A stretch of 22,844 nt of DNA from the IMG/VR virus record IMGVR_UViG_3300022540_001103, positions 1 to 22,844 of that record; one strand, given 5' to 3'. Made by a program: the position numbers and the translations under genes. The notes beneath the pieces were generated by a model, which saw only the letters and a list, made by a program, of their open reading frames with translations, was not told the origin of the DNA and did not search any database. The DNA comes from a virus. How positions within the stretch are numbered: the stretch's first letter is position 1; every line of letters starts with the position of its first letter. Shown here piece after piece: positions 12,399 through 22,504 of this stretch.

Positions 12399-12725
12399 TT
12401 ATTCAATTTTCTCCAATTGTCCTAAATAAAAATCTAAATCACTTAGATTAAAATCACCCGACTCCTGAGGTTCCACACCTAAGGCATGAGCAATCCGCAA
12501 CAACTTCCTCAGAGCAGTTCTTTTCACACCAGCAGAAGCATTAATCTGATTAACTTTCACTAAAGCATTCCGAACTTGGGCTCTATCAATCTTACCCGCA
12601 ACATCTTTATACGGCAACACTCTCAACAACCTGGGAACAGTCCGACCAGTCTCATCTACCTTCCCACCAAGCAAAACAATAAGAAAGGCTGAATCAGGCA
12701 AATCATCAACAGAAACATTCTGCAT
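12399..12725 (-). CDS. Small protein with DLPDSAFL...VRNAL module of phage head genes
   Basis: This 108-residue protein starts at ATG 12725 with AGGAG 7 nt upstream and overlaps the preceding gene by 20 nt. It matches a module I know from the ends or neighbours of Mu-like phage head proteases: a start like D-L-P-D-S-A-F, then GGKVDETGRTVPRLLR, a proline-tyrosine step (VLPYKD), VRNALVKVNQ, and a closing helix with AHALGVE. Here it is free-standing instead of fused. The biochemical role of this module is not known to me. It precedes the protease gene, so head assembly is likely. It could interact with protease or portal. Confidence 0.6.
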   Translation of the reverse strand: MQNVSVDDLPDSAFLIVLLGGKVDETGRTVPRLLRVLPYKDVAGKIDRAQVRNALVKVNQINASAGVKRTALRKLLRIAHALGVEPQESGDFNLSDLDFYLGQLEKIE

Positions 12726-13044
12726 ATTCTATCTCCTTTATAAAATTTTCAATCTCACGAGATAAACCATTAAACACTGTCCTTTCATTTTGAGAAAGCA
12801 TTTGTTTCTGAGGATTAATAGGAGTAGCAGGCTGAAATTGACCCCCCCGACTAACACAAAGAGACTGAGCTACCTGAATACTAATATTCCCAGGGATTCT
12901 TATACTGCGAAGAGCCAACTTCCCGTTAGGTAACTTTCCGTAGACCATACGTAAAACCCCATATGCAGTTTTCTTTGTACGGATTTCAGCTATCTCAGTA
13001 ACTTTGTCATTAACCATACATGAGTGTTCCGTGCGGAAAGGCAT
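12706..13044 (-). CDS. Small EHS/EHA-type head-module protein
   Basis: The ATG at 13044 is supported by TGGAGG 6 nt upstream; a TTG two codons earlier overlaps that signal. The 112-residue protein begins MPFRTEHSC and continues with a beta stretch (YGVLRMVYGKL) and LALRSIRIPGNIS. That resembles a module which begins many phage head protease or portal-associated proteins (P-F/Y-x-x-E-H-A/S, then GKxxLQAIRF). The C-terminal half (LSQNERTVFNGLSREIENFIKEIEY) is probably helical. It is the first gene after the portal and is preceded by a promoter candidate at 13090-13062. Function unknown; head assembly is inferred from position. Confidence 0.55.
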   Translation of the reverse strand: MPFRTEHSCMVNDKVTEIAEIRTKKTAYGVLRMVYGKLPNGKLALRSIRIPGNISIQVAQSLCVSRGGQFQPATPINPQKQMLSQNERTVFNGLSREIENFIKEIEYAECFC

Positions 13045-13061
13045 ACCCAACCTCCACTACT

Positions 13062-14542: not shown

Positions 14543-16252
14543 TTAAAACTTTACTTCCTCCGCTTTAAAAGCTTCAAACCCTTCTGGTCTCTGCTCCCTT
14601 TCAGCAGTTTTTTCAGACCAAAAATCAATACTTCCCCAACCCTCCTCTTTTACACAATTATACACAGCCCCAGCAACTGCATCAGAACCATCCTTGCCTC
14701 TCCCAGTACGATGTTCAATTCTCTTACCCTTCCAGTCTATCAGAAAAGGCATCTCTTCTTCAATCAAAATTTTATTATAATATGAAATAAACCGTCCCTC
14801 ATATATAGCATCCTGCCACGTCTCATAAGCCTCTCGTGTCCTGTCAACAGACTGAATGTCCACTTCAAGCCCCTTCGCCTCCATTGCCTGCATCATCTGG
14901 AGAGATTGATAACCATCAAAAGTCAACAGAGCAACATAGAAACCTCGCTGTTCTACAAATTCTATCAACATGCTCTGTATCTCAGCAAAATTAACTTCCC
15001 CACCAGGAGGAGCTTCAAAATATGCCAGAACATCCAGCTTCAACAACGGCATATCTACAGTCACTATTTGTTTCTCTCCTTTTTTATCCTCTGCTTCTAT
15101 TGTTTCTTGTTTTACATCATAGGCATGAACAAAACAAAAAGCAGCTCTACATCGATTTTTAGCCAAATCCACATGTCCAAACCTGAGAAAACTATCTGCA
15201 CATCGAAACGAGGATTTATAACGTCCCGTATCTATATCAATAGGATTGGGAAGGTCATGACTAAATGCCCGCTTTATCGCAACATGGTTCTTAAAGAACG
15301 CATCCTCAGCGACTTTAGGCTCACACAAAATTCGACAAGCAAATCTTATCGGGTTCCTCTTCTTCTCATGAGCAAAATCCGAAGCTTTCTTGGTTGGGTT
15401 TATATCAAAAGTTGACCCAAAACTCGTATACATCTTAGAGTCATTTTTACCTTCATCGTATCGAGTCGTAATAAAATCCCCCTTAAAACGTGGAAACGAA
15501 AGAGACACAACTTTACCCACCTTTGGAAATCGCATTATAGATGTCATTGCAAGGTCATGCAAAGAATTCGCAGACATCGGAATATTTTTCCGCAACCGAG
15601 TCCTTTTCAAATCCGCCACTTCTTCATCCGTTTTGAACGCCGCTATCTCATCCAAAACAACTATAATCAAATTCAACCCCTCCTGAGCTTCCGCCTCGGA
15701 ATGTCCACTGATAAGAGTAATAGCCTTTTCAAACCGAATTTCCGAAGCTAGAACATCTGCCCTACCTTTAAAGAAAGGAGAATTTTTCACATACCTACGG
15801 AGCGGAGTAAAAAACACATTGGCTGCCTGGTCTTTTGTACTTGCAGTATTCAACATATGAATCGACTCAGACCCACAAGACATGTCAGGAGAATAGTAAT
15901 AAGCCTGCGGATTCTTCAAAGCCAAAAGCAAATAAGCAATCCTTAAAAACATAATGCGAGCCACAAAATCCTTCCCACTCCCTTTCCCCCACAGAAGCAC
16001 CAGCTCATTCACATACCTCATCCGCTTCCAGCCTAAGCTCTTCAATGTGTCAGGATTATAAACCTGACTTGCATACTCCACAGCTTCATACTGTTTAGGA
16101 GAAAGTTCAGGAAGCCCAAGAAACCGCTTCCCTCGAATAAATTCTTTCAAAGGGACAGGCTCAAACTCAAAGATAGATGAGCTCCCACGACTGAAGCCCT
16201 TTCCAGTCTCTATCTTCTCAATTGCCTTTTGAAATATAGTCTTACTATGCAT
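14543..16252 (-). CDS. terL: Large terminase subunit
   Basis: This 569-residue protein packages DNA into proheads with an ATPase and a nuclease domain. The ATPase has a Walker A-like LLWGKGSGKD (residues 86-95, with Asp after the catalytic Lys, as in several TerL) and Walker B IIVVLDE (about 196-202). The nuclease domain follows, with acidic residues at HVDLAK (near 363), LLTFDGYQS (near 447) and GKDGSDAVAGAV (near 525), matching the RNase H-like terminase nuclease. Phrases such as SVDRTREAYETWQDAIYEGR are typical of TerL. The start ATG overlaps the upstream stop as TAATG, with GGAG 9 nt upstream. A possible small subunit lies two genes upstream. Confidence 0.93.
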   Translation of the reverse strand: MHSKTIFQKAIEKIETGKGFSRGSSSIFEFEPVPLKEFIRGKRFLGLPELSPKQYEAVEYASQVYNPDTLKSLGWKRMRYVNELVLLWGKGSGKDFVARIMFLRIAYLLLALKNPQAYYYSPDMSCGSESIHMLNTASTKDQAANVFFTPLRRYVKNSPFFKGRADVLASEIRFEKAITLISGHSEAEAQEGLNLIIVVLDEIAAFKTDEEVADLKRTRLRKNIPMSANSLHDLAMTSIMRFPKVGKVVSLSFPRFKGDFITTRYDEGKNDSKMYTSFGSTFDINPTKKASDFAHEKKRNPIRFACRILCEPKVAEDAFFKNHVAIKRAFSHDLPNPIDIDTGRYKSSFRCADSFLRFGHVDLAKNRCRAAFCFVHAYDVKQETIEAEDKKGEKQIVTVDMPLLKLDVLAYFEAPPGGEVNFAEIQSMLIEFVEQRGFYVALLTFDGYQSLQMMQAMEAKGLEVDIQSVDRTREAYETWQDAIYEGRFISYYNKILIEEEMPFLIDWKGKRIEHRTGRGKDGSDAVAGAVYNCVKEEGWGSIDFWSEKTAEREQRPEGFEAFKAEEVKF

Positions 16253-17715: not shown

Positions 17716-17744
17716 AAGATACTCTAACCTTATTCAGATGTCAA
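17716..17744 (-). promoter_or_regulatory. Sigma70/SigA-type promoter upstream of the packaging genes
   Basis: TTGACA (17744-17739), a 17 nt spacer and TATCTT (17721-17716) are present. The -35 box overlaps the last codons of the clamp-loader gene, whose stop is at 17730. The AGGAG of the next gene follows after 6 nt, giving a predicted leader of about 12 nt. It marks the border between the DNA-metabolism block and the packaging and structural genes and could serve as a late promoter. Confidence 0.6.
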
Positions 17745-18842
17745 GAGTCGGACAACCTCGTCACCCTTCAAAGGCTGGGGTTTGGTGGGGGATTTCGACA
17801 ACCCTCCAATTGTACTAGCAATCTCATGAAACAAAAGCTTTGCGGCTGGCTTCCCCTGGGACACAATCCGATTAGAAATAAAACCATAAGTACACTTCAA
17901 CATCCCTCCATACAAAAGACTATCCCTGGTTCCCGCCTTTAAAGCCTGTTTAAGCATACTACCCAGATAGTCAACAAACCGCCGTATAAAAATCTTAAAG
18001 TCAGGCTGAAACACCTGGAACTCATCAAACAACTCCACCGCTTTAACAAAACCTCCTGTTTTTAACTGCCTTATAATCTCTTTAACAACTGTCACATCTC
18101 CATACACTTCCTTTACTAGCTCCTTTGTAACCACACCCTTCCCAAGAACAGATAAATGCTCAAGCATCACAAGCACTTCCCGCAGATTATAACTTGACAA
18201 ATCATACAGCTCCCGACACAGCTCCATCGAACAATTTGTAGCCTCCTCATCCAACAAACTCTTCAAAAATTTCTCTATTTCCAGCCATCGAATCAGCTTA
18301 AATCGAAACTCCAGAAGACGACTCACAACCGCCTCACTCTTCTTGACAATCTCCGAAACATCTGTAGTAATTAAAATAAAGAAAACATTCTCAGGAGGCT
18401 CTTCCAGGAGCTTTAATAATGCATTAAGAGCTTCTTTAGACATCATATGACATTCATCCATAATCACAATCTGGTACTCTGCAAAAGAATAAGAAACGAG
18501 GCGGTCTCCGAGTTCTCTTATATTATCAATCAAACCACAAAATGCTGCATCAAGCTCCAGCACCCCACCGAGCCCCTGAGTTATCTGATAACAACTTTCA
18601 CATGTTCCACAAGGCTCTACCCCCGTTCGCTTATCACAATTCAGGGATGCAGCAACAACCCTTGCCACAGTAGTTTTCCCTACTCCACTGCTACCACCAA
18701 AAAGAGCTCCCGCAGGAAGCGGTCTCTGATTCTTGTAATATTCACCTAGAACAATCTCAAAGAAATCAACAATGTGCTTCTGTCCTAGAACATCTTTAAA
18801 CTGTTTCGGTCTATACTTAAGATTCCATCTCGTTGCTGCCAT
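17730..18842 (-). CDS. dnaX: DNA polymerase III gamma/tau-type clamp loader subunit
   Basis: This 370-residue AAA+ ATPase matches bacterial DnaX. It has Walker A GGSSGVGKT (49-57), the zinc module C69, C78, C81, C84, the LELDAA...IDNIRELGDRL segment (95-115), Walker B IVIMDECHMM (125-134), sensor 1 region ILITTD (156-161) and an SRL (174-176) in place of the usual SRC arginine-finger motif. The C-terminal third would be the collar domain. It is shorter than E. coli gamma (431) and lacks the tau extensions that bind DnaB and polymerase. It starts at ATG 18842 (GAGG, 6 nt) and overlaps the radical SAM gene by 26 nt. It could load a host or phage sliding clamp. No delta, delta-prime or clamp gene is seen in this window. 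Confidence 0.92.
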   Translation of the reverse strand: MAATRWNLKYRPKQFKDVLGQKHIVDFFEIVLGEYYKNQRPLPAGALFGGSSGVGKTTVARVVAASLNCDKRTGVEPCGTCESCYQITQGLGGVLELDAAFCGLIDNIRELGDRLVSYSFAEYQIVIMDECHMMSKEALNALLKLLEEPPENVFFILITTDVSEIVKKSEAVVSRLLEFRFKLIRWLEIEKFLKSLLDEEATNCSMELCRELYDLSSYNLREVLVMLEHLSVLGKGVVTKELVKEVYGDVTVVKEIIRQLKTGGFVKAVELFDEFQVFQPDFKIFIRRFVDYLGSMLKQALKAGTRDSLLYGGMLKCTYGFISNRIVSQGKPAAKLLFHEIASTIGGLSKSPTKPQPLKGDEVVRLLTSE

Positions 18843-21414
18843 GACACACCTCTCTCAATTTTTCTTTTTCCTTCTCCCAAAGCCCTACTTTTTCCACAGA
18901 GAAAGAAAGAATCTTCCGAAAAGATTTATCATTAAAGAAACCTTTCAAGAATACTCGAATGTCAACATCATGACTTAGCTTAATCTTCAACACGCCATAA
19001 TCTTCTACACGAACATCCCAGAAAAATACTTTTTTAAGGTCAATCTCCTTCTTCCGCTTCCCTGAATAATATCGGGTTACTTGCTGCAAAACAACAACCT
19101 CAGAGGCATCGAGGAATTGATTATAATAGGCTCGTAGTACATCCTGATTCCAAATCCCTGTCTCAATCCTATACTCACTTATAACACTCTTCAGTCTCGG
19201 TTTTTTAGCCTCAAGCTCCATACGCCGAACAAGCTTCATATTCGGAAGTGCCGCACCCTTCAAAAGTTGAAACTCCTGCTCAGAGATTTCCCGTTGTGTT
19301 GCCATAAAGAAATAGTCGTAACCTCCATACCAATTCTTATTGTCTCTATCACTAAGAAAAACCATCTGATTCACAGACAAAGGAAAATCACACAAATAAG
19401 CTGCCCGATGAAACACAGCCTTAAAATGTGAATTCGGCACCATTTGATAACCATCAGGTACTCGATAGATAACCCGATGCCATCGAACGTAGCTCTGCTC
19501 ATCATTCTCAGGAGCATCAAGAACACCAGCTCCCATCCTTGGTTTAATCCGTATTTCTCTTTTATCAAATTGCCCTGACTTTATGCCAAGATACATTTTA
19601 AGCAGAGACGACTTTGGTACGCCCCTATCTACAATATCCCAAGGAAAGATTTCATTACTATAACGCTCCCGCATAATGTATCCCCAGGAAAAATCTGTTT
19701 TCTTCATCCATTTCGTTACAGTATCTTTCATAGTACGACAGTACGATGCATAGAACGGTCTGTCCAACTCTTCAGCAGCTTTCACCACAGCTTCAGCAAA
19801 CCTCGTATCCCCCAAATGCATACCCTGCATCACATACAGAAAATTCTCCTCAAATTTTCCTCCTCCCCCTCTAGGATATTTCACAATGCGTTTAATAACT
19901 TTACCTTCTTCATCTTTAACATTAAATCTATCAAGATGTTCACTAATCTCCATCCAGGGCTGTCTCTGGTCTAAAGTCGGCTTCTTCCACTGGAGAGGAG
20001 TACAGGGCTCTATAAAAATAGGAGTCCAACTAACCAGTATTTGTATTTTGGACTTCATCAAATCCCGATACTGAACAACTTTATCCAACAAGGAAAAAAA
20101 CTCCTCATAATCCTTCCAATCCTCATCTACATTTGCAAGCATATAAAATTTGATTTTTGTATACCCTTCAGTCTCTATTGCAATTCGACACGCCTTCAAA
20201 ATCTCCTCCTCAGTAATCCCCTTTAGAAGACGATTTCGCAATCGCTGAGACACACCCTCAACTCCAAGAGCCAACTGACGCATTCCCAACCTACTCAAAA
20301 AACGGTCAAATTCTCGGTCTTGAGTAAAAGCATCCATCCGTATGGAAAGAGGGTCAACAACCCGACTAATTTTAGCTAATTCATTAAACAATTTCCGTTT
20401 TTCAGTATAAAAAGCAAACTCTGTAGCAATAGGACAAAGCCCTTTAAATGTACCGCCATTCTTTTTGTTCTCTTTCATCCCCACAACTATCTTTTCTACA
20501 CTTCGCTCTCGGTAAGGGCGATACTTCCAGCCGATACCACAGAATGCACAAACTCCTCGACACCCCCTTGAAATCTCCACTTCTCCCAGCCCCATAGTAG
20601 CATCCGTATATGAAGGAATAGGCTTCGTATACATAGGAACTTTATCCAACTCCTTACATTTAGCGACTTTAAACTTCATAGGAAATTTTGAAGGGCTCGG
20701 TTCCCATTTAAGGAACTTTTCCTTATCATATTTTGGTTTATAAAACCTTGGACAAAAAATAAAATCAAAGTCTCTCTGAGCAATGCCCAGCCCCTCATGA
20801 TTAGACAACCCATGCTCTTTCACATTCATCCACATCGTAAGCAAATCAAACAGTCCAGGCTCCGCATCCCCCAGATAAATCATATCTGCAACAGGATAAG
20901 CAACGCAGAAGTTACCATACATTGCCGAACCTCCCACCATAATCATCGGGTATCTAGGCTCGTCCGTTCCGTCATGATGCTCTCGGTCTTGTCTCAACAC
21001 AGGAATACCACTCATCTTAAGCTGGAGGATAAAATTAACCCAGGGAGGAAGGAAACTCAGAGAAGTAGCAACTATATCAAACTCTCCTGCTGACCGCTTC
21101 GATTCCACACTGAAAAGAGGGTATAGGTGCTTCCGAAATAGCTTATATTCTTTTTCCGTACTAGGGAAATAAGCTCTTTCACAGACAACATCCTCCCTCC
21201 ATTCATTAATCATTTGATAGAGGAGAGGAAGACTCTGATTCCCCCTAAAATCTTCATAGCGATAAGGGGCAACCAAAAGGATTCTCAGTTTGGCAGAATC
21301 CCAGTCCTTATGAAATGTATTGGGTTCCCTCCCCAGATAGCAATGAGGCAAATCGAGTTCAGACTTATGCTCTTCCAAAAAATCTTTAACTTCCTCGGAA
21401 GACCTAATTAGCAT
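18817..21414 (-). CDS. Radical SAM protein, TIGR03960-like with C-terminal DUF2344 domain
   Basis: The ATG at 21414 is chosen over a preceding TTG because GAGG lies 5 nt upstream and the codon overlaps the upstream stop as TGATG. The 865-residue protein has three parts. Residues about 45-190 resemble the B12-binding-like Rossmann domain of TIGR03960 proteins, ending in MIMVGGSAMYGNFC and a G-D-A-E motif. Residues about 275-490 are a radical SAM domain with RGCRGVCAFC, i.e. C285, C289, C292 for the 4Fe-4S cluster, followed by YRPYRERS. The DUF2344-like domain, about 640-850, has LPNMKLVRRMELEAKKP and SGKRKKEIDLKK. The reaction of this family is not established to my knowledge. Coupling to the glycosylase and clamp loader suggests co-regulation with DNA metabolism. 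No sign of frameshift. Confidence 0.88.
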   Translation of the reverse strand: MLIRSSEEVKDFLEEHKSELDLPHCYLGREPNTFHKDWDSAKLRILLVAPYRYEDFRGNQSLPLLYQMINEWREDVVCERAYFPSTEKEYKLFRKHLYPLFSVESKRSAGEFDIVATSLSFLPPWVNFILQLKMSGIPVLRQDREHHDGTDEPRYPMIMVGGSAMYGNFCVAYPVADMIYLGDAEPGLFDLLTMWMNVKEHGLSNHEGLGIAQRDFDFIFCPRFYKPKYDKEKFLKWEPSPSKFPMKFKVAKCKELDKVPMYTKPIPSYTDATMGLGEVEISRGCRGVCAFCGIGWKYRPYRERSVEKIVVGMKENKKNGGTFKGLCPIATEFAFYTEKRKLFNELAKISRVVDPLSIRMDAFTQDREFDRFLSRLGMRQLALGVEGVSQRLRNRLLKGITEEEILKACRIAIETEGYTKIKFYMLANVDEDWKDYEEFFSLLDKVVQYRDLMKSKIQILVSWTPIFIEPCTPLQWKKPTLDQRQPWMEISEHLDRFNVKDEEGKVIKRIVKYPRGGGGKFEENFLYVMQGMHLGDTRFAEAVVKAAEELDRPFYASYCRTMKDTVTKWMKKTDFSWGYIMRERYSNEIFPWDIVDRGVPKSSLLKMYLGIKSGQFDKREIRIKPRMGAGVLDAPENDEQSYVRWHRVIYRVPDGYQMVPNSHFKAVFHRAAYLCDFPLSVNQMVFLSDRDNKNWYGGYDYFFMATQREISEQEFQLLKGAALPNMKLVRRMELEAKKPRLKSVISEYRIETGIWNQDVLRAYYNQFLDASEVVVLQQVTRYYSGKRKKEIDLKKVFFWDVRVEDYGVLKIKLSHDVDIRVFLKGFFNDKSFRKILSFSVEKVGLWEKEKEKLREVCHGSNEMES

Positions 21415-21971
21415 CAAATCCTCATCAAAACCTCATCTAAAACTTTTGCTACTTTCTGAAGCTCTCTAAACTTTTCTGGCTTATAACAAACGGATGCTGG
21501 ATGAATGGACGGGATGACTTTAAACCCCATCTTATGTTTAAGAACCTTCCCATGATATTCACTAATCTTCGATATGCTATTAATAAAATAATTCGGCTGG
21601 GCTCCAAAAACCACCACAACTTTCGGCTTCATAAACTTCAAACTAGGAATCAAAAACTTACGAACACACGTACTAACTTCATACCTTGACAATAAACGAT
21701 TCTTCTTTGTCTTACACAAGCACACATTTGTCACAAAAATATCTGGTCGCTCCAGCTCTATTTCCATAAGGAATCTCTCAAAAACTTCACCCGCCTTCCC
21801 TACAAAAGGACGACCTATCTCATCTTCTCTTTCTCCAGGATTCCGCCCAATGAAGAATACTTGAGGAGAAGAAAAACAACCCTCGCCAGGAACAGGATTT
21901 TTGCAATCACGACGAGCTGGACAAGCCGTACAAGCCAAAACAGCCTCTCGATAGTCTTGATACCACCTCAT
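21414..21971 (-). CDS. Uracil-DNA glycosylase, family 4-like (Fe-S)
   Basis: The ATG at 21971 is preferred to a GTG two codons earlier because GAGGAG sits 5 nt upstream and the ATG overlaps the upstream stop as ATGA. This 185-residue protein removes uracil from DNA in base excision repair. Cluster cysteines are C14, C17, C86 and C102, with the expected family 4 spacing. Motif A reads GRNPGEREDEIGRPFVGKAG, the conserved asparagine is in FVTNVCLCK, and the C-terminal motif is IPSIHPASVC. In motif A the acidic residue of the usual GEAPG is Arg here, which may alter activity or specificity. Extra cysteines at 23 and 32 flank the cluster region. Next gene overlaps by TGATG. Confidence 0.88.
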   Translation of the reverse strand: MRWYQDYREAVLACTACPARRDCKNPVPGEGCFSSPQVFFIGRNPGEREDEIGRPFVGKAGEVFERFLMEIELERPDIFVTNVCLCKTKKNRLLSRYEVSTCVRKFLIPSLKFMKPKVVVVFGAQPNYFINSISKISEYHGKVLKHKMGFKVIPSIHPASVCYKPEKFRELQKVAKVLDEVLMRI

Positions 21972-22504
21972 TCCCACTCCTCAAAGTTATCATTCATATG
22001 AAGAAAAATCACTGGAAGATTCCAGTACTTCTCCCCCCTCTTCTGATTATAAATAAAAATATTCTCATCATCCAAAATCTGTTTAAAAGAGATACTCGCT
22101 CGGTCTCCCTGCTCATCCAGCTTAATAAAATGCTCCACATCAATCATCGCTATAAGATTCACTCTCTTACCTAAATTGAACTGCTCCTGTTGCTTTTCCG
22201 TCACACCATAATTACGGTAATTAATAACAATATAAGCTCCTCCTCGATTCTGAGATACTTCCATAAGAGACTCGATTTGATACTGTGTTACAGCACCAAA
22301 AGGAAATCCCGTCAGTGATTTCATCCACTTCAATTCAAAGGCTACGAAAACTTTCTCATAAAATACATAGCAGTCATACGGCTTTCTAGGGATGAACCTG
22401 GAACTCCCCACTCTAGGCATATCAGGAATCTTCTGAAAATGAGCATTAGGAAAGTAGAACCTAAAGGAATCCCTCCACTCTTTTTGGAAAACAGTCTCTC
22501 TCAT
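21968..22504 (-). CDS. RecU-like Holliday junction resolvase
   Basis: This 178-residue protein resembles RecU-family PD-(D/E)XK nucleases that cut Holliday junctions during recombination and chromosome or concatemer resolution. D44 (RKPYDCYVFY), E57 and K59 (FVAFELKW) have the same 13 and 2 residue spacing as the catalytic Asp, Glu and Lys of Bacillus RecU, followed by GFPFG, then TQYQIESLMEV with Q74 or Q76. The N-terminus is shorter than cellular RecU (about 200 residues). It starts at ATG 22504, 2 nt after the upstream stop, with GGAG 13 nt upstream, so initiation may rely on coupling. It could process replicating phage DNA before packaging. A related nuclease of another subfamily is possible. 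Confidence 0.78.
   Translation of the reverse strand: MRETVFQKEWRDSFRFYFPNAHFQKIPDMPRVGSSRFIPRKPYDCYVFYEKVFVAFELKWMKSLTGFPFGAVTQYQIESLMEVSQNRGGAYIVINYRNYGVTEKQQEQFNLGKRVNLIAMIDVEHFIKLDEQGDRASISFKQILDDENIFIYNQKRGEKYWNLPVIFLHMNDNFEEWE

Follow-up and report, generated by a model that had tools for sequence, protein, structure and literature searches.

We detected a phage gene that joins a radical S-adenosylmethionine (SAM) enzyme to a tail with the predicted fold of the pseudouridine synthase TruA in IMG/VR virus record IMGVR_UViG_3300022540_001103. All 22,844 bases of this record (hereafter the window) were analyzed; it is one complete IMG/VR record, although probably a fragment of a larger genome. 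The 865-amino-acid product is a new, virus-borne version of a known but uncharacterized bacterial family, TIGR03960. Purifying selection acts on the open reading frame (ORF): between the window and relative L001, the ratio of nonsynonymous to synonymous substitution rates (dN/dS) is 0.125 for the whole ORF, 0.085 for the radical-SAM part, and 0.207 for the tail. Because dN/dS is low and the cluster-binding motif is invariant, the sequences indicate that the fusion is an active enzyme. We suggest that this cobalamin-type radical-SAM enzyme may alter structured RNA, most likely by C-methylation of host or phage tRNA or rRNA, a proposal for which we judge the case to be evenly balanced.

Architecture of the fusion protein

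The gene and its parts are listed below; clade 1 denotes phage relatives of the window type, and clades 2 to 4 are other viral groups described further on.

18817..21414, minus strand: radical-SAM/TruA-like (DUF2344-type) fusion protein, 865 amino acids, ATG at 21414 (ORF; TIGR03960 below cut-off, Radical_SAM_N2 and Radical_SAM above gathering score; dN/dS as above)
20665..21294, minus strand: N-terminal Rossmann (B12-binding-like, Radical_SAM_N2) domain, residues ~41-250 (PF19864 at residues 64-213, 91 bits; AlphaFold2 model; MgmA match from residue 44)
19855..20586, minus strand: radical-SAM barrel, residues ~277-520 (PF04055 at residues 279-439; MgmA fold match)
20539..20562, minus strand: CxxxCxxC motif for a [4Fe-4S] cluster, residues 285-292, CRGVCAFC (three Cys invariant in all clade-1 relatives)
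20500..20520, minus strand: RPYRERS motif, residues 299-305, directly after the cluster loop (matches cellular RPVRERS)
18820..19500, minus strand: DUF2344-type domain with predicted TruA-like pseudouridine-synthase fold, residues 639-865 (profile-profile comparison, 97.8%; tail-only model; TruA Z 10.9)
19315..19353, minus strand: loop SDRDNKNWYGGYD, residues 688-700, standing where TruA has its catalytic loop, with Asn692 aligned to TruA Asp60 (profile alignment; tail alignment)

The original prediction described a full-length TIGR03960–DUF2344 fusion that keeps a B12-binding-like fold, a radical-SAM core, and a DUF2344 tail, and all three domains are indeed present. Pfam matches to Radical_SAM_N2 (91 bits) and Radical_SAM (51 bits) both pass their gathering scores, and the motif stretch, SRGC285RGVC289AFC292GIGWKYRPYRERS, is intact. 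TIGR03960 matched residues 20-606 significantly (227.4 bits, E 3.2e-67), and the protein carries the domains and motifs of that family (Radical_SAM_N2 and Radical_SAM, CxxxCxxC, RPxRERS), but the score falls well below the curated cut-off of 462.3 bits, so membership in the curated family was not borne out. Nor is the protein full-length in the sense claimed, because it lacks the CxxxCxxCG motif that cellular members have at the C-terminus: no Cys triplet is found there in clade 1, window included, whereas the motif is kept in clades 2 and 3, clade-4 members, and cells.

An AlphaFold2 model of the full protein (pLDDT 78.4, pTM 0.79) contains the radical-SAM barrel, and the nearest solved fold is MgmA (9ccb; Foldseek E 2.6e-9; Z 16.8, 375 residues aligned across 44-539). 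The next structure matches were CysS, MiaB, OxsB, AprD4, TsrM, and RimO, with TokK also among them. The predicted model thus combines a Rossmann domain with a radical-SAM fold like that of MgmA, as expected of a cobalamin-dependent radical-SAM methylase. Rossmann domains of cobalamin-dependent radical-SAM enzymes are treated as the cobalamin site, and many are base-off without a His ligand (PMC13331322).

The tail is a remote homologue of DUF2344 as judged by profile comparison. PF10105 did not match the window even at E<=1, TIGR03936 gave no match there either, and Pfam and NCBIfam run on the window tail by itself returned nothing; PF10105 does match the tails of relatives L001 (E 1.5e-4) and L002 (E 3.9e-5), below cut-off. 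The anticipated DUF2344 match was nevertheless recovered when a profile of twelve phage tails was compared with cellular DUF2344 (97.8%, E 7.8e-13, 208 columns), with unrelated families at <=1.7% and 20 column shuffles at <=0.8%. A tail-only AlphaFold2 model (pLDDT 85.7) adopts the TruA-family fold, with TruA itself as the top match (Z 10.9, 3.6 A, 193 of 264 residues aligned), and the best 50 structure matches are all pseudouridine-synthase-fold proteins or ribonucleoprotein/mitoribosome entries holding one. At the level of sequence, the cellular DUF2344 profile aligns with the TruA profile (58.5%, E 9.6e-5), whereas the phage tail profile alone gave no alignment with it (0.3%) and no match when searched against PDB. 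Neither cellular DUF2344 nor the phage tails keep the catalytic GRTD loop, which is replaced in both. Asn692 of the window stands where TruA has its catalytic Asp, a position set by profile alignment rather than superposition, and the phage rows of the tail alignment show no conserved Asp there. DUF2344 has already been grouped within the pseudouridine-synthase domain clan in published Pfam-clan work (PMC7955657). From the model, we infer that the tail may be an RNA-binding module without catalysis.

Several motif variants were observed among the relatives. The clade-3 proteins (L091, L092, L093; 8980-11832) have a CX4CX2C motif, GCNAGNCSFC, in which four residues separate the first Cys from the second; these proteins, like most of clade 4, also have an added zinc-ribbon-like C-terminus. 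In L236 (7785-11669, record G343), an intein-like insert lies immediately ahead of the third Cys of CxxxCxxC (CPAWCSF / CHLTY), and in L234 (9312-13190, record G334; also L145), an apparent intein separates CYGK from TCGVC at the C-terminal Cys motif.

Distribution, origin, and gene neighborhoods

Alignment-based scans of viral contigs and whole-record searches showed that no fewer than 21 IMG/VR records, spread over three phage lineages, carry the fusion: clade 1 (the window, L001, L002, L052, L053, L054, L055, and the fragment L111), clade 3 (L091-L093, 34% identity), and clade 4 (ten larger records, ~30% identity). Clade 2 (L056-L061) forms a separate group whose radical-SAM protein has no tail and whose tree position is unsure owing to long branches; one of its genes (L061/L097, 8956-10997, record G313) is split over three frames by mutation or assembly error. 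Whole-record searches covered 39 records that have a related terminase, and 10 of these carry the gene, a lower bound since the records may be fragments. In line with the original remark that no characterized phage copy was known, PHROGs has no matching family for any of 15 proteins tested, and 50,697 annotated phage records yielded no true phage match. The matches in the annotated collection were all of cell type and were rejected as phage copies; they come from gut scaffolds that are short and unannotated and from a record named "Microcystis phage" that carries trpS, ispG, and mqnC. Four phage-labeled records with cell-type TIGR03960 genes (MW495066.1, which is the one with trpS, ispG, and mqnC, MT839369.1, MT836750.1, and MT835938.1) are probably mislabeled bacterial DNA. 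Scans of genome contigs gave distant cellular matches only.

In two trees of phage and cellular homologues, in which Bacillota and Chloroflexota were the phyla sampled deeply, the 18 phage fusion rows form a single clade (100/100) apart from the cellular proteins of both phyla. By these trees the clade is provisionally virus-only, and the phage fusion appears to be an old viral branch rather than a lone capture. Cellular fusions also exist: the six long frames that we checked in Bacillota are nested inside that phylum, which argues that the radical-SAM and DUF2344 parts were joined separately in phages and cells and that the phage fusion probably arose independently. Such repeated joining, in phages and one or more times in Bacillota, makes it likely that the two parts act together. 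The cellular family is near-universal in one phylum, with matches to the phage profile in 274 of 299 sampled genomes. A separate DUF2344 gene is a neighbor of the radical-SAM gene in 29 of the 30 Bacillota loci and is close to it in 13 of 20 Chloroflexota loci, a Rng/RNase-G/E-like gene follows DUF2344 in at least 11 of the 30 Bacillota loci, the flank ending too early in many of the others, and one fully read cellular locus runs on to L21, YsxB, L27, and Obg (named by eye).

The phage gene sits among genes of DNA metabolism, and portal, terminase, capsid, and tail-tube genes were found by profile searches elsewhere in the window. Its neighbors and the terminase are as follows.

17730..18842, minus strand: DnaX-like clamp loader (TIGR02397, 221 bits; phrog_5846)
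21414..21977, minus strand: family-4-type uracil-DNA glycosylase, UDG (NF040953 at 126 bits and TIGR00758 at 114 bits, both below cut-off; PF03167 above gathering score)
21968..22504, minus strand: RecU-like Holliday-junction resolvase (PF03838; phrog_843)
14543..16252, minus strand: terminase large subunit, used as phage marker (phrog_2/phrog_9; marker scan)

As predicted, the gene is wedged between UDG and the clamp loader with overlapping starts: the UDG stop and the radical-SAM start share one base (TGATG), the clamp-loader ATG lies 26 bases within the end of the radical-SAM gene, and a purine-rich site precedes both starts. The order in clade 1 is DnaN, SbcC C-terminal part, resolvase, UDG, radical SAM, DnaX; several clade-4 records have DnaN, SbcC C-terminal part, radical SAM, DnaX, incomplete in some, and in clade 3 the gene stays near DnaX. 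An SbcC-like ATPase, an SbcD-like nuclease, and the SbcC C-terminal part occur in all eight clade 1-3 records fetched. The radical-SAM gene is also common to these records, but by selection, unlike the other three. The proposed replication setting is kept in distant phages, but adjacency to UDG is not general: UDG is present in clade 1, G308 (clade 2), and G320 (clade 4), and missing from the three clade-3 records and most clade-2 records, so we rejected it as an obligate partner.

The resolvase slot ahead of UDG is RecU-like in the window, L001, and L002 and RuvC-like in L052 (6885-7433) and L053 (6844-7452), a swap at one position. At window positions 12399-13050, as in L001, a pair of short ORFs of 108 and 114 amino acids overlap, and their counterpart in L002, L052, and L053 is a single ORF of ~240 amino acids. 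L066-L070 and L074-L076 largely encode their own replisome (DnaN, DnaX, delta-like subunit, PolA, RecA, helicase, primase) along with a sigma-like ORF, all named by eye.

Candidate function and alternatives

The original prediction left the substrate as DNA, a tRNA, or a translation or replication protein. Of these, RNA is favored over DNA because the tail has the fold of TruA-like RNA-modifying enzymes, and the ribosomal and RNA setting of the cellular gene partners points the same way. In the proposed mechanism, the TruA-like tail, its catalytic Asp gone, would grip the RNA, while the N-terminal Rossmann domain would hold cobalamin as methyl carrier. The [4Fe-4S] cluster bound by CxxxCxxC would then split SAM, in the manner of its enzyme class, and the resulting 5'-deoxyadenosyl radical would activate the target carbon. 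As gene order suggests, the enzyme may be made together with replication proteins, with the RNA change occurring early to mid infection. Several points weigh against this proposal. The phage gene has DNA-replication and DNA-repair genes around it rather than RNA genes; tRNAs are few, 2 in total across six records scanned; MgmA, the nearest solved fold, has a protein substrate; and the tail could bind DNA or protein instead. Cobalamin binding is not readable from sequence, and the literature searched for TIGR03960 or for DUF2344 with radical SAM held nothing on function and no experiment on any family member.

Alternatively, the enzyme could modify phage DNA, for instance by C-methylating a base or sugar within the polymer, and work alongside the replisome and UDG in protecting or marking that DNA. 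The DnaN/SbcC-part/radical-SAM/DnaX order kept in clade 1 and several clade-4 records at ~30% protein identity, the closeness to DnaX in clade 3, and the overlapping starts with UDG and DnaX are all consistent with this role. We nonetheless consider it unlikely, as UDG is missing from clade 3 and most of clade 2, the tail fold belongs to RNA enzymes, cellular relatives adjoin RNase-G-like and ribosomal-protein genes, and nucleotide-hypermodification genes were not recognized by eye in the ORFs of G307, G005, and G304. A protein target, such as a ribosomal or replication protein modified in the manner of MgmA and RimO, seems similarly improbable: the protein C-methylase MgmA is the nearest solved fold, RimO matches too, and L21 and L27 are neighbors in one cellular locus, but the tail matches are RNA enzymes and, to our knowledge, neither MgmA nor RimO carries a TruA-like tail. 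That the gene is a recent host capture decaying without function in the phage is very improbable, since the sub-cut-off TIGR03960 score and the Cys motif lost in clade 1 are set against the low dN/dS, a cluster motif intact in all clade-1 members, the well-supported virus-only clade, and conserved neighbors.

Beyond RNA modification as preferred here, a broader and more doubtful possibility is a widespread, virus-specific radical-SAM system: large phages of several lineages would carry it in their replication region, and during infection it would place an undescribed carbon-linked mark on either phage DNA or host or phage RNA. If so, such a mark could, for example, help evade nucleases or take over translation. 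The phage fusion, which appears old, recurrent, and overlooked in phage annotation, offers through its virus-only branch an independent handle on a near-universal cellular family lacking functional work in the literature searched. It also ties DUF2344 to RNA-enzyme folds by predicted structure, and clade 1 suggests that the C-terminal Cys motif is dispensable.

Comparison with known systems

Two candidate relatives were set aside. TIGR03914 and TIGR03916 make up a pair of a UDG-like and a radical-SAM gene, and the window likewise has a radical-SAM gene beside a UDG-like gene; TIGR03916 was absent from matches at E<=0.01, and UDG is missing from many radical-SAM-bearing relatives, so the phage gene was not assigned to this type. 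Slr0320 (PMC8065906), considered as a cellular relative, is 1596 bp with other stated domain borders.

The phage protein resembles parts of three groups of characterized enzymes. With MgmA (TIGR04014), a glutamine C-methylase with a B12-binding domain, it shares the Rossmann domain and radical-SAM barrel over residues 44-539, but MgmA differs in its 18% identity, its protein substrate, and its lack of a TruA-like tail. The MiaB/RimO/MtaB methylthiotransferases, which have RNA or ribosome targets, also combine an N-terminal Rossmann-type domain with a radical-SAM barrel (Z ~12); they carry another C-terminal module where the phage protein has its TruA-like tail, and no MiaB-family score came near cut-off. 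The phage tail is predicted to share the fold of TruA, PUS3, and PUS1 (Z ~9-11), but structural-alignment identity is 4-11%, the GRTD Asp is replaced, and the phage would use the fold as a module of another enzyme.

The closest system is bacterial TIGR03960 (rSAM_fuse_unch) with TIGR03936/DUF2344, fused or adjacent, which shares Radical_SAM_N2, CxxxCxxC, YRPxRERS, and a homologous C-terminal domain. The phage protein differs in having neither the C-terminal CxxxCxxCG nor the GFNP motif of DUF2344, it falls in a separate clade that is provisionally virus-only, and its gene lies among replication genes, whereas the cellular genes lie near RNase-G-like and ribosomal-protein genes.

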